From NCBI GenBank assembly GCA_002721545.1, contig PBKR01000032.1, positions 157,585-221,584 of the forward strand: a stretch of DNA of 64,000 nt, in the 5' to 3' direction. Each line of letters begins with the position of its first letter. Positions within the stretch are counted from its first letter, which is position 1. The position numbers were made by a program, and so were the translations under genes. Shown in pieces: positions 57,731 to 64,000 of the stretch. The notes beneath the pieces are model-generated. The model was not told the origin of the DNA. It made no database searches and worked only from the letters and a program-made list of their open reading frames with translations. The stretch is from Nitrosomonadaceae bacterium (GTDB taxonomy: Bacteria; Pseudomonadota; Gammaproteobacteria; Burkholderiales; Nitrosomonadaceae).

Positions 57731-58008
57731 CGATTTTATGGGCGCCATATCTAAGCCTTTTCTACTTATGTGGCACATATATTTACTGAATATTTATAAC
57801 TATTAAGCTATATTAATTATTTATGGCCTCAAACTTCAAAATCAATTAATACATATCGAGACTAAATTATTACTATGGCAAGCTCTCATATGCTTGGCTT
57901 TTGTTTTTTATCTGTTCTTATTATTGCCTATTCCAAGTAAATTATAAAAGATGTGTATTAATATAAATTTTTGTATTAAAAATTATAATTAAGTAACGTC
58001 ACTAGCTA

Positions 58009-59337
58009 GTGTCCATAGAAGATAAGCCTACAAATCTTACTAAAAATATAAGCCGACGAGAAATCTGGTCATGGGCTATGTTTGATTTTGCAAACTCTGG
58101 ATATACCACCGTTGTTATTACAACAATATTTAATACTTATTTTGTAAGCATAGTAGCCAATAATCAGGACTCGTCAGCTTTTGTCTGGACAGCTACCTTA
58201 GCGGTCTCATATGCCATCATTATTATAACCGCACCAATTATAGGCATATATGCAGATATTTATGCCGCCAAAAAACGCCTGTTACTACTTTCTGTTATAG
58301 GCTGCACATTTTTTACCTTGCTACTCTATTTTGTAGGTCCAGGGGATTTATGGCTCGCTATATTTCTTGTAATTCTTGCTAATTTCTTTTTTGGTACCGG
58401 TGAAAACCTAATTGCTGCCTTTCTACCAGAAATTGCAAAAAAAGATTCCCTAGGAAAAATATCTGGCTGGGGCTGGAGCCTTGGCTATATTGGCGGCCTA
58501 ATAAGTCTCGGCTGTTCATTCATTTACATAATTTGGGCCAAATCTCAAGGGCACCAGTCTGAGCAATTTGTACCTATAACCTTGCTAATAACTGCTTCAT
58601 TATTTGCTATTTCAAGTTTACCTACTTTTCTTTATCTAAGAGAGCGAGCACAACCACAAAAACTGCTATACCGCTATAACATAATCACTGAGATCTTTTC
58701 TAGGTTAATTATCACAATAAAAACATTACATAACTTCCATGATTTATCACGCTTTCTAATTTGCCTAATATTTTATCAAGCAGGCATCCAGACCATTGTT
58801 GTAATTGCAGCAATTTATGCACAACAAGTCATGGGGTTTGATCATAACGACACTATTTTACTAGTTATTTTAGTAAATATAACCGCAGCATTAGGAGCAT
58901 TTATCTTTGGCAATATTCAAGATAAAGTTGGTCATATTCCAACTATTACATTAACTCTTATTGGTTGGATAATAATGGTCTTACTTGCCTGGGGAGCGGA
59001 GGACCGCACAATGTTCTGGATAGCTGCCAACATAGCTGGCCTGTGCTTAGGTTCCTCCCAGTCTGCAGGTCGAGCATTAATTGGATATTTAAGTCCTGTA
59101 CTACGACGCGCAGAAATTTTTGGTCTTTGGGGGCTAGCAGTTAAGTTATCTTCTATTATAGGCCCATTAACATATGGCCTAATTAGCTGGATATCGCAAG
59201 GCGACCATCGCCTTGCGATATTAATTACTGGTAATTATTTTATTATAGGTCTATTTATATTAATGAGTGTAAATGTACAAAGGGGCCGACAAGCTGCACT
59301 AAGCAAGAATCAACCCTGTAATACAGTATCTCATTAA
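58009..59337 (+). CDS. MFS transporter, UMF1/Atg22-like family
   Basis: GTG start; RREIWSWAMFDFANSGYTTVVITTIFNTYF; GNIQDKVGH; about 12 TM. Confidence 0.9.
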   Translation: MSIEDKPTNLTKNISRREIWSWAMFDFANSGYTTVVITTIFNTYFVSIVANNQDSSAFVWTATLAVSYAIIIITAPIIGIYADIYAAKKRLLLLSVIGCTFFTLLLYFVGPGDLWLAIFLVILANFFFGTGENLIAAFLPEIAKKDSLGKISGWGWSLGYIGGLISLGCSFIYIIWAKSQGHQSEQFVPITLLITASLFAISSLPTFLYLRERAQPQKLLYRYNIITEIFSRLIITIKTLHNFHDLSRFLICLIFYQAGIQTIVVIAAIYAQQVMGFDHNDTILLVILVNITAALGAFIFGNIQDKVGHIPTITLTLIGWIIMVLLAWGAEDRTMFWIAANIAGLCLGSSQSAGRALIGYLSPVLRRAEIFGLWGLAVKLSSIIGPLTYGLISWISQGDHRLAILITGNYFIIGLFILMSVNVQRGRQAALSKNQPCNTVSH

Positions 59338-59420
59338 TACTTTTAAGCAAATTGTAGTATCTTAATTTTTTCTTAACTTAAAGCTTAATTTAATATGCAA
59401 TATGATGGCTTATTTTATAT

Positions 59421-59948
59421 TTAGTAGCCTCCGTGACTATCATTATGCTGGTCCATTTCATGATGATCACTATGCTGATCATGAGAATCAACATGGCTAT
59501 CCGAATTTTTTATTTGTTTGTTTTTTTCTATTGGCTTTAGTGGAGTAAAACGGGCGGCTTGTGCATCTTGATCAGGCAGCTTAACAAAAATCATAATTTT
59601 TGTTTCCTGGGTAACAACAAAATTGCCTTCCGCTCTAAATAAATTATTACCCTTAGGCTTCAATTTAACTGTAGTTTTTGTTTCTCCATTCTCAATAGTG
59701 GCCTTGCCTATTCCCCCGTCTACACTAACTTCAACATTTGCATGATCTGTTATATATAAAATTATCTCTTTATCCTTAGCTATTATTTCCATATGATAAG
59801 GGCCAGCCATGCGCATTTGCCCGCCATGGGGCGCCACAACTGAATCGAAATATTGATCAGTATGAGACCAGGCTATTGACGAAAAAGCCAACAAAATAAA
59901 CGATAGAATAAAAGCTCTTAATTTATTCATTTTTCTTCTCCTAAGCAA
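59421..59948 (-). CDS. Periplasmic protein with His-rich C-terminal tail, downstream of copD
   Basis: Signal peptide; VVAPHGGQMRMAGPYHMEII; C-terminus SHVDSHDQHSDHHEMDQHNDSHGGY. Confidence 0.8.
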   Translation of the reverse strand: MLRRRKMNKLRAFILSFILLAFSSIAWSHTDQYFDSVVAPHGGQMRMAGPYHMEIIAKDKEIILYITDHANVEVSVDGGIGKATIENGETKTTVKLKPKGNNLFRAEGNFVVTQETKIMIFVKLPDQDAQAARFTPLKPIEKNKQIKNSDSHVDSHDQHSDHHEMDQHNDSHGGY

Positions 59949-59977
59949 TTGAACCTAATATAAACCTACATGTTTGC

Positions 59978-62005
59978 CTAATGCACCATATCGTCTGGAG
60001 GCGGCAGAATTTCTTTTTCTTGTTTTAATTGGACAATTTGTTTCATTAATAACCTCATATTTGACCAACCACCGGCATCAGCCACAGGAATCCAGCGTGC
60101 TCGTAAATAGCCAAAACGATCTACCAAAAATTCTAAATGATTAGGGATAGCCCCTTCCCCTAACAGGTCAGGTCGCCCTAGCGTTCTACGGTATAAAATA
60201 TAGCTTTGTGTAATTTCTTTTGCTCCTTGAGTTACAACTGGGAATGGTATTTCTTCTGTAATTTCAGCCAAGCTCTCAGAATTAAGGCTATGCATGGGAA
60301 CGGCAAGAACCTCTGTACCGCCTTCTTCCACCTTATAATATTGGGCCCTCAACTGAGCAAGTCGTTCACGTGACTCTGGCCACGAAAATAATACTAATAA
60401 AACAGATTTGTTGTACCTAAAATCTTGAAGTATCCCATGTGAACCATCATGAGCAGTGTAAGAAAAATTAGGGGGGCCAGTAGAAGGATCGTCAGGAATA
60501 ACCTTTGGACTCATAAGGCGGGCTTGGTAACCACGAGACATGGCATGAATATAATTAACGACATCCCAACGGCCCTCCTCATCAAGTTTAGCCTCGAAAC
60601 CAGGCATACCTGTATCTGGTATGCCCTTGCTTAGCCAATTGAAAAAATCTCCCGCCGTATGCCTTTCAGTGTGCGGTTCTGTAAGCAAGTCTGCCGGGGG
60701 CTTAGTGAAGCTCTTTGCCAAAACGCCATTGCCTTTACCCTGAGGCCCGTGACAGACAACACAGTTTTCTGCAAAATAACCTGCTCCCTTAGCTATCGAA
60801 ATAGAATCAAATGGCACCGGTGTATTGCGATAAGTTTCAGGATATGCCTGAACTGCAATAGGTGGCAGCATTACTGCAAAAGAACTTAATATAACTACCC
60901 CTGATACCCCAATACTTCGAAGTAATGCCCATTTCTTTATTTTTCCAAATATAATTATACCAACAGCAAACAAAAATAAAGAAGCGCCTAATAATACCTG
61001 TGTTTGTACAGATGGATCTTCCCATGTTGCATCAATAGAAAAACGAAATGGATAGGGCCATTCCTCAATTAGAGAATGTTTTGCCGGAATTGTATTTGCT
61101 AGTATAGTTGCTAATAATATTATTACTCCTGCAATTACAAATTCAACACGAACCCATTTTCTTAAATTCTGTGTGCCCATTGCTATCAGATCTTGCCCCT
61201 GAGAAAGAGCTGGGAGCCAGATAGAACGTGCGCGTGAAGCAATTACCAAAATAAATATAAGCAGGATAACCTTAGTAATGAGAAGCCAGCCATATTCAGT
61301 TGCAACAAGAGCTCCATATAATGTATCTACTGCACGGTCTGCAACAATTACACCTGTTGCAATTATACCCAGCATTATAGGCAACGCTATAATTGAAAAT
61401 CGCTTTAATGTTTGTATACCAAGCTGATCAATTTTCTGGCTCACTTGACCCTTTTTCTTAGTAAATATAATTAAGAGAAAGGCCGGCAAAGCTCCGAACC
61501 ATGCTCCGGCTAAAACTATATGTAGTGTATATGGAAGAATTGAGGTAACTGACATTTCTTCTGCAGCAGCATGACTACCTAGAGAGCCCAATGACAAAGT
61601 TACAATAGCGAATATTGAACATAATATATATCGCCATTGAGCCCTGTTTAAATGTGAATTTCGAATTATAAAGGCTATGCCTAATGTCAAAATTGCAAAA
61701 CCCTCGCGCCACATCCAAATATGTCCAGTACGAGTTTTAATAAGAAATTCATACCATGCACTTGGTTGCCAAGCGTGTCCAATTACTCCTGTTGCTAAGG
61801 AAGAAGAAACCGCAAGTAGTGCTAATAAACCTATTACAAGAACCCCTGCTATCCATGGTAACAATCTCTCAAGCCTAATAAGCCATGGGGTAGAAACAAC
61901 CGCTTTGTTATAAATTGAAATTACAAGAAAAATACTACTACCTATCAAGATCATGTTAGCCGCTAACTGAACCCAGCGGACGATTACAGCTACAATCTCA
62001 ATCAT
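59978..62005 (-). CDS. copD: CopD-like membrane protein fused to cytochrome c and a redoxin-like domain
   Basis: N-terminal multi-TM CopD part, then CVVCHG haem motif, then C-terminal region resembling SCO/AhpC-TSA (FGYLRARWIPV). Confidence 0.88.
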   Translation of the reverse strand: MIEIVAVIVRWVQLAANMILIGSSIFLVISIYNKAVVSTPWLIRLERLLPWIAGVLVIGLLALLAVSSSLATGVIGHAWQPSAWYEFLIKTRTGHIWMWREGFAILTLGIAFIIRNSHLNRAQWRYILCSIFAIVTLSLGSLGSHAAAEEMSVTSILPYTLHIVLAGAWFGALPAFLLIIFTKKKGQVSQKIDQLGIQTLKRFSIIALPIMLGIIATGVIVADRAVDTLYGALVATEYGWLLITKVILLIFILVIASRARSIWLPALSQGQDLIAMGTQNLRKWVRVEFVIAGVIILLATILANTIPAKHSLIEEWPYPFRFSIDATWEDPSVQTQVLLGASLFLFAVGIIIFGKIKKWALLRSIGVSGVVILSSFAVMLPPIAVQAYPETYRNTPVPFDSISIAKGAGYFAENCVVCHGPQGKGNGVLAKSFTKPPADLLTEPHTERHTAGDFFNWLSKGIPDTGMPGFEAKLDEEGRWDVVNYIHAMSRGYQARLMSPKVIPDDPSTGPPNFSYTAHDGSHGILQDFRYNKSVLLVLFSWPESRERLAQLRAQYYKVEEGGTEVLAVPMHSLNSESLAEITEEIPFPVVTQGAKEITQSYILYRRTLGRPDLLGEGAIPNHLEFLVDRFGYLRARWIPVADAGGWSNMRLLMKQIVQLKQEKEILPPPDDMVH

Positions 62006-62406
62006 TTTTCTTCTACTTTATTTTTTACCGTGTAATTAAAAGTAGAATCAACAACATGACCATCTACTGATAGCACTCTGAATTTAACCGTATATTTTCC
62101 TGGCTTAGTCTCAGGTATTGGAAGAACAATTGACTTAGGATCATCTTTAACTACCCTTGGCTTTGCATTTGTTATTAATTTTTTATTTGACCCAAAGACT
62201 GTAAGCGTAGTATATGCTCCTTCAATTTCTTCATTAAACCAAAGCCTTATTTGCTCTGGGGCTCGGTCTAACGCTGCCCTTCGAGCTGGCTCTGCTTTGA
62301 TTAGCTGTGCGTGGGCCCATACTGGTGAAGTATGCAGCCACATTATAGCAACTATGGCAATACCTATCGTTACTCTTATATGCACCATTAATTGTGTTAT
62401 TCCCAT
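62002..62406 (-). CDS. copC: CopC-domain copper-binding protein
   Basis: HAQLIKAEPARRAALDRAPEQIRLWFNEEIEGAYTTLTV...GKYTVKFRVLSVDGHVVDSTFNYTV. Confidence 0.95.
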   Translation of the reverse strand: MGITQLMVHIRVTIGIAIVAIMWLHTSPVWAHAQLIKAEPARRAALDRAPEQIRLWFNEEIEGAYTTLTVFGSNKKLITNAKPRVVKDDPKSIVLPIPETKPGKYTVKFRVLSVDGHVVDSTFNYTVKNKVEEK

Positions 62407-62516
62407 CTTGACCTCTATTTCAGAGCTAAAGCCTCTTAGCCCATTAAATGTCTATATCTTATTGACAAAACATTGTTTAAATTGTTCGTTTAATTTTAGT
62501 AACAAATATTATTTTG

Positions 62517-63095
62517 TTATGCAGTAGAACTATCCGTTGATTTTTTACCTACTTTAAATAAAAAGAAAGCGCCTGCTCCTAATGCTGCCGCTATGGCAAA
62601 TACCAAACCTGATGGCATGCTACTAGAGCCTTCTCCTACTGAAAATGGAAACCGTGAGATATGTTCTTGATTTTTTCCAGACGTTACTAATCCAACAAAT
62701 TTTCCTGGTTCATTAAACGTATGTTCAAAATTAATTGAGCCATTTGAATATACTTTAGCTGGCAAATGAAGAATTGTAATGCTATCTAAATTTTCTTCTG
62801 ACCCCGTATCTTTAATTACTCGCACCTCTGTAGGTAGTGGCCTAAGCGCTTCTTCAATATAATCAAGCGCTACTACTGTACGTCCTGTCGCAGGAATATC
62901 CTCACAAAATTCTTTTTCTTTTGAGCTATTTGGCTGGTAACCAGTAAAATGCATCGTATATGGCCCAACTGTCAATTTACACATATCATCCGCAAGAGAA
63001 AGGCCACCATGAGCCTGTACCTGAGTCGTGAATGAAAGGCCTATTATTAATAGAAACGAAAGTAAAATTGGCCATATATATTTTATAAGCATCAT
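62517..63095 (-). CDS. amoD: AmoD (orf5)
   Basis: Signal peptide; DMCKLTVGPYTMHFTGYQPNSSKEKEFCEDIPATG; C-terminal TM; between amoE-like gene and copC. Confidence 0.85.
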   Translation of the reverse strand: MMLIKYIWPILLSFLLIIGLSFTTQVQAHGGLSLADDMCKLTVGPYTMHFTGYQPNSSKEKEFCEDIPATGRTVVALDYIEEALRPLPTEVRVIKDTGSEENLDSITILHLPAKVYSNGSINFEHTFNEPGKFVGLVTSGKNQEHISRFPFSVGEGSSSMPSGLVFAIAAALGAGAFFLFKVGKKSTDSSTA

Positions 63096-63196
63096 TAAAA
63101 TCCTTTTATGAATTTACAAATTTATCACTAGATTTAGTTTTATGACTTGTTTAATTGTCTCTTACACTTTTCTTTTCATGTGCCCCATATTTTTGA

Positions 63197-63772
63197 CTAA
63201 GAACGCTTGGAAGCCAACCATTTCTGCACTTTTTTAGTTTTTGTTATTTTATATCCAATAAATATAAGCACCAAAAAAGCTATTGTTGGTCCTATTGCTT
63301 TCTTAAATACTTCTGAATAGTTTATCATTTGCACTCGTAATGGATACTCGTACTCTACAGGAGGAACCCCATCTCCCTTTATCATTACCGTATACCGACC
63401 TTTTTCTAGAAAAACACTCTCTGCAACCACACCATCTGGATGATAAATAGGCTTTACTATTTTTATAGTTTCGCCATTTTCCTCATCAGTTCCTTTCACG
63501 ATACGCATACTTACAGGCATATCGCGTAATGCTGCGTCTACAAGATCTACCACTAGAAATGTTTCGCCTTCATGCGGTATATCCGTGCAATAATGCGCTT
63601 TTGGTTCAATTTTTGGTTGATACACACTAAGATGCACCATACTAGAACCAGCTCTTCGCATACAGCTATCCTGCTCTATTGCAACGTTACCATGTGCACC
63701 TGCCACATTCGCATAAAGTGCCGTAGCTATAATAAAAGCTGTTACGCTTGCCCTTATTGCTTGCTTTACCAC
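63197..63772 (-). CDS. amoE: AmoE (orf4)
   Basis: Signal peptide; DSCMRRAGSSMVHLSVYQPKIEPKAHYCTDIPHEG; C-terminal TM; first gene after the amoB-end terminator. Confidence 0.83.
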   Translation of the reverse strand: MVKQAIRASVTAFIIATALYANVAGAHGNVAIEQDSCMRRAGSSMVHLSVYQPKIEPKAHYCTDIPHEGETFLVVDLVDAALRDMPVSMRIVKGTDEENGETIKIVKPIYHPDGVVAESVFLEKGRYTVMIKGDGVPPVEYEYPLRVQMINYSEVFKKAIGPTIAFLVLIFIGYKITKTKKVQKWLASKRS

Positions 63773-63880
63773 GGACGAATCTCCTCTTTGATATTCAACG
63801 ATTTATTGATTCTTATTTGGCCAATTCCAGCACCTTGAATTAAGCGTACGAACAAGACTTACACCAAATTCTTTGTTCAT

Positions 63881-63930
63881 TAAAAAAAACCGACCCACCA
63901 TCCCGTCAGAAAGACGGGGGGGCGGATCGG
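63881..63930 (-). terminator. Rho-independent terminator between amoB and amoE
   Basis: Minus strand CCGATCCGCCCCCCCGTC-ttTct-GACGGGATGGTGGGTCGG (18-position stem with G-U pairs and a 2-nt mismatch) followed by a T8 run. Confidence 0.85.
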
Positions 63931-63948
63931 TGTCTTGCCTGTCTTACC

Positions 63949-64000
63949 TTATAGCTTGGTAAAGACTGGAATCACAGGACCATGTATGCTATTGATGTTG
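63949..64000 (-). CDS. amoB: AmoB (ammonia monooxygenase subunit B) C-terminus, partial
   Basis: Minus-strand frame ...NINSIHGPVIPVFTKL* with stop at 63949-63951, upstream of amoE-amoD-copCD. Confidence 0.7.
   Translation of the reverse strand, partial: NINSIHGPVIPVFTKL

Follow-up and report, generated by a model that had tools for sequence, protein, structure and literature searches.

The betaproteobacterial amo cluster amoCABED-copCD, as described for Nitrosomonas and Nitrosospira, places amoB, amoE, amoD, copC and copD one after another on a single strand (PMC6189053). Within this cluster the motif Cx7MxHxnC has been assigned to AmoE and Cx8MHxnC to AmoD, and CuA formation is confined to the former (PMC6189053). 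In metagenome-assembled genomes (MAGs) of freshwater Nitrosospira, the amo and hao operons were found on short unbinned contigs, with the near-identical copies as the cause (PMC9239080). The stretch of 64,000 nucleotides analysed here, hereafter the window, comprises bases 157585-221584 of contig C32 (221584 bases) and belongs to a member of the Nitrosomonadaceae, a family of betaproteobacterial ammonia oxidizers. It almost certainly ends in the 3′ portion of an amoCAB operon that is present twice in the genome of a low-GC ammonia oxidizer of this family. The genes found there keep the one-strand order of the described cluster and are accompanied by a predicted terminator hairpin, a flank of a two-copy repeat and an assembly break, since window and contig end at the same base. 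The genome is assembled into 2.01 Mb in 37 contigs, with an estimated completeness of 99% and an estimated contamination of 7.5%.

Table 1. Features at the end of the window, all on the minus strand.
Feature	Coordinates	Strand	Basis
amoB 3′ end, last 16 codons NINSIHGPVIPVFTKL and TAA	63949..64000	-	sequence; identity to G005 AmoB
amoB-amoE intrinsic terminator, long GC-rich hairpin and T-run	63883..63931	-	RNA fold
end of the repeated amoCAB unit, 119 bases	63882..64000	-	exact match to the start of contig C34
amoE, 191 aa, GTG start, PmoD/AmoD family	63197..63772	-	CuA-type motif; homology
amoD, 192 aa, PmoD/AmoD family	62517..63095	-	PmoD 6cpd match; motif
copC, 134 aa, periplasmic copper-binding protein	62002..62406	-	Pfam CopC E=5e-22
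copD fusion, 675 aa	59978..62005	-	CopD E=3e-17, Cytochrom_C E=7e-14
His-rich periplasmic protein, 169 aa, conserved partner after copD	59421..59930	-	found after copD in related loci

Read 5′ to 3′ along the minus strand, positions 59421-64000 carry the AmoB C-terminus, the terminator, amoE, amoD, copC, the copD fusion and the gene for the His-rich protein (Table 1), with amoE to copD downstream of the amoB end as in the betaproteobacterial amo operon. The sequence-only reading had given the genes from amoE onwards these names and this order, with which the motifs, the 6cpd matches and the Pfam hits agree. It had further described a 17-residue C-terminal fragment before amoE as belonging to AmoB; the identity holds, as NINSIHGPVIPVFTKL is identical in 16/16 positions to residues 406-421 of AmoB in G005, a same-genus genome in 8 contigs, although the fragment has 16 residues and not 17. 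The intact order in G005 is parA-parB-amoC-amoA-amoB-amoE-amoD-copC-copD-HisR, and the gene order in G001 and G004 is the same. Between G005 and the window, amoE, amoD, copC, the copD fusion and the His-rich protein show 69-84% identity; compared with the gene at the same position in all three genomes, AmoE is 71-72% and AmoD 81-83% identical. These features are not due to chance because of the 16/16 match of the AmoB end, the 6cpd matches of AmoD and AmoE and the gene order repeated in related genomes, and the sequence comparisons support reading the locus as the downstream part of an amoCAB-amoED-copCD cluster in an ammonia oxidizer of the Nitrosomonadaceae.

The two PmoD-type proteins resemble PmoD of Methylocystis (6cpd; PMC6189053) in their motifs, which are CMRRAGSSMVHLSVYQPKIEPKAHYC in AmoE, a CuA-type Cx7MxHxnC, and CKLTVGPYTMHFTGYQPNSSKEKEFC in AmoD, a Cx8MHxnC, and both end in a hydrophobic stretch resembling a membrane helix. 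Against the solved PmoD structure, AmoD scores E=3.2e-25 and AmoE E=6.4e-9. Both would thus be membrane-anchored periplasmic copper proteins of the PmoD type, and AmoE is predicted to form a dimeric CuA site.

CopC exceeds the Pfam gathering cut-off clearly (PF04234, 79.1 bits against 23.3), as does CopD (PF05425, 63.2 bits against 32.1), while the latter stays below the NCBIfam equivalog cut-off with 112 of 195 bits. The copD fusion is laid out as a CopD membrane domain, a cytochrome c domain with a CVVCH motif and a C-terminal, cysteine-free domain resembling a thioredoxin fold, the AhpC-TSA match of which sits below the cut-off; an AlphaFold model of the protein had a mean pLDDT of 50 and was left unused. 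Full-length relatives with 56-84% identity occur across the Nitrosomonadaceae and also in a comammox-like MAG of the Nitrospiraceae (L031), where the cluster reads amoE-amoD-amoD-copC-copD, and the fusion is accordingly not peculiar to this genome; a literature search on the CopD-cytochrome c-thioredoxin-like fusion found no paper. CopC and CopD would bind and move copper, and the cytochrome c part may pass electrons in copper reduction or import.

The gene for the His-rich protein ends at 59421, the His-rich portion being the tail of the protein, and the gene probably begins with the ATG at 59930, as the relatives do, rather than with the TTG at 59948. Pfam and NCBIfam searches with the protein gave no match. 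The best match of its predicted fold (a model from 7 sequences, mean pLDDT 74) is the Helicobacter pylori copper resistance determinant CrdA (9ll2), a moderate match with E=3.7e-4 and a TM of 0.61 by target; hits to Pizza proteins were discarded as short repeat artefacts. The likeness to CrdA thus concerns the predicted fold and the copper context, whereas the identity is 15%, the gene neighbourhood is another one and a sequence search gave no credible hit. A copper role appears likely from the model, and the protein probably stores copper or hands it over.

The region between amoB and amoE folds stably as RNA, with -33.1 kcal/mol for 63878-63936 (z = -6.6) and 0/200 shuffles equally stable, and a hairpin followed by a T-run is seen by eye at the same place in G005, G001, G004, G002, G010, G015 and G016. 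A simple promoter and terminator consensus scan returned no more than shuffles and missed this terminator owing to an internal loop, and an Rfam search of window positions 58000-64000 gave no match. By analogy with known families, the terminator would act as an attenuator, probably lowering transcription of amoED-copCD relative to amoCAB; the downstream genes would then be transcribed by read-through or from a promoter of their own. In amoCAB copies without amoED, identity to the other copy breaks off at the terminator's T-run or shortly after it in this genome, G005 and G010 and, barring a one-base indel, in G015 (window 63882-64000; L036/L037; L007/L016, L008/L017). The homogenised unit appears to be amoCAB plus the terminator.

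Pfam searches of the whole assembly for AmoA (AMO, PF02461) and AmoB (Monooxygenase_B, PF04744) gave zero matches, and an AmoC profile recovered a complete gene from C36 and, from the edge of C10, a 5′ fragment. The ends of the contigs account for this pattern. The terminal 119 bases of the window recur exactly at the start of C34, the common prefix being exactly 119 nt, beyond which C32 continues into amoE and C34 into a dinG-like helicase gene. The operon promoter, again as 119 exact bases, closes both C31, after parA-parB, and C29, after scpA-scpB, and also occurs in G005 and terminally on C36. In G005 there are exactly two operons, parB-amoCAB-amoED-copCD and scpB-amoCAB-dinG, which share a stretch of 3294 bp at 99.97% identity. 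Because of the 119-nt overlaps and the match to the two G005 operons, the ends of C31, C29, C32 and C34 are read from sequence as the four flanks of an amoCAB repeat present in two copies, and the contig stops at 64000 because the operon is duplicated. A k-mer graph would leave such a constant 119-base overlap at the cuts, and the repeat node itself is absent from the bin. The upstream part of the locus lies past the contig end; the promoter-bearing flanks C31 and C29 and the same-genus synteny agree with amoC-amoA there. Which upstream flank joins which downstream flank would follow from the synteny of G005, with no reads involved, and we infer the operon middle (AmoA, and AmoB beyond the 16 residues to which the genome's own sequence is limited). 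C10, with amoC codons 1-68, was also considered as an upstream flank and rejected, since comparison with contig C2 of G005 shows it to be the lone amoC locus described below, the true flanks being C31 and C29. The other edge of C29 (L065, G000:C29 1-137) carries another amoC 5′ end, which probably brings the number of amoC genes in the genome to four, the same as in G005.

Given the contamination estimate of 7.5%, the window contig could come from another organism in the same bin; such an origin is nevertheless very improbable, as all flanks match same-genus synteny and hence one lineage and the GC content is 34-40% across the six stretches of this genome that were checked, with 36.9% in the window, and the locus reads alike whichever organism owns the contig. 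It is less credible still that amoA and amoB were truly lost, leaving the accessory genes as a relic and ammonia oxidation gone. The lack of PF02461 and PF04744 matches in a genome estimated to be 99% complete would fit such a loss, but the break of the contig lies inside amoB, where 119 nt are shared with a second contig, the two upstream flanks each terminate in a piece of operon promoter of that same length, the accessory genes are intact, and HAO is present as two partial genes at the ends of C4 and C10 (PF13447, E<1e-112, multiple CxxCH). The family as a whole argues in the same direction: AmoB is found in 21/21 Nitrosomonadaceae genomes with at most 8 contigs versus 57/104 more fragmented ones (Fisher p = 2.7e-5). 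Altogether 47/125 genomes of the family are without an AmoB match, including 29/99 of good quality, and 44/47 of these AmoB-less genomes retain an AmoD/AmoE homologue. The missing amoA and amoB are an assembly gap caused by near-identical copies, rather than a loss. A 99%-complete genome can thus miss both genes purely by repeat collapse, and labelling a lineage a non-nitrifier on the basis of such an assembly would be wrong, a caution that has already been published (PMC9239080).

Finally, a pmo-type (methane or hydrocarbon) monooxygenase instead of amo, conceivable in that PmoD, CopC and CopD accompany methanotroph pmoCAB too (PMC6189053), has next to no probability, given that G005 AmoB, to the end of which the fragment is identical, matches the solved AmoB chains 9pxf, 9leg and 9cl6 with E down to 5e-215 versus 2e-108 or weaker for pMMO chains, that the betaproteobacterial amo layout has amoE as a gene of its own ahead of amoD (PMC6189053), that HAO is present and that the relatives are Nitrosomonadaceae. 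The earlier proposal of an amo-operon edge in an ammonia oxidizer is thus borne out by the AmoB C-terminus shared with G005, the four-flank synteny, amoC elsewhere in the assembly and HAO. By their likeness to known families, AmoCAB, encoded on the unassembled repeat, would oxidize ammonia to hydroxylamine, which HAO would oxidize further, with AmoE, AmoD, CopC and CopD serving AMO in copper supply or electron transfer. The two HAO pieces (L056 and L057) have 475 bp in common at 98.1% identity, an overlap that points to two copies of hao or to strain variants.

Apart from the operons, a lone amoC is followed by a gene for an AmoE paralogue and a gene for a sigma-70-type factor, with a divergent LysR gene upstream (L035, G000:C36 6292-8506; L051, G005:C2 5050-7288), and the locus is kept in two species of the genus. 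The two window proteins showed no difference from the PmoD/AmoD family, while the paralogue has Lys in place of the CuA Met ligand, giving Cx7KxHxnC (CVRGAKGSKVH on C36, CVRGEQGSKLH in G005). The locus might represent an AMO variant under its own regulation whose copper partner has changed, although we regard this as rather unlikely. Just upstream of the lone amoC, C10 (L034, 205-428) holds a degenerate tandem copy consisting of the promoter and the first 49 codons (MAITHSSIRTVAKASSSYVDIKCYDQWASPII...). On C36 (L035, 8507-8654) the operon promoter precedes the lone amoC, whereas G005 and C10 have a different, LysR-bearing region there; C36 was probably joined chimerically by the assembler across identical amoC copies.

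Among described systems, the NspGL freshwater Nitrosospira MAGs (PMC9239080) are similar in having a small genome and in the loss of amo and hao operons from the bins through near-identical copies. They differ in that NspGL1 has 1.42 Mb and 40.7% GC, against 2.0 Mb for the present genome and 36.9% for the window, and in that proteorhodopsin, known from lake Nitrosospira, gave no match in this genome. Nitrosomonas sp. Is79 (PMC3764937) likewise has several near-identical amoCAB copies, of which only some lead into amoED, and an extra lone amoC. From the betaproteobacterial amo clusters in general nothing essential differs, the present genome having two copies, one of which leads into dinG in place of amoED. 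The cluster is of the ordinary betaproteobacterial amo type, real but unremarkable, and with it a low-GC Nitrosomonadaceae species carrying a standard amo cluster joins the known ammonia oxidizers.
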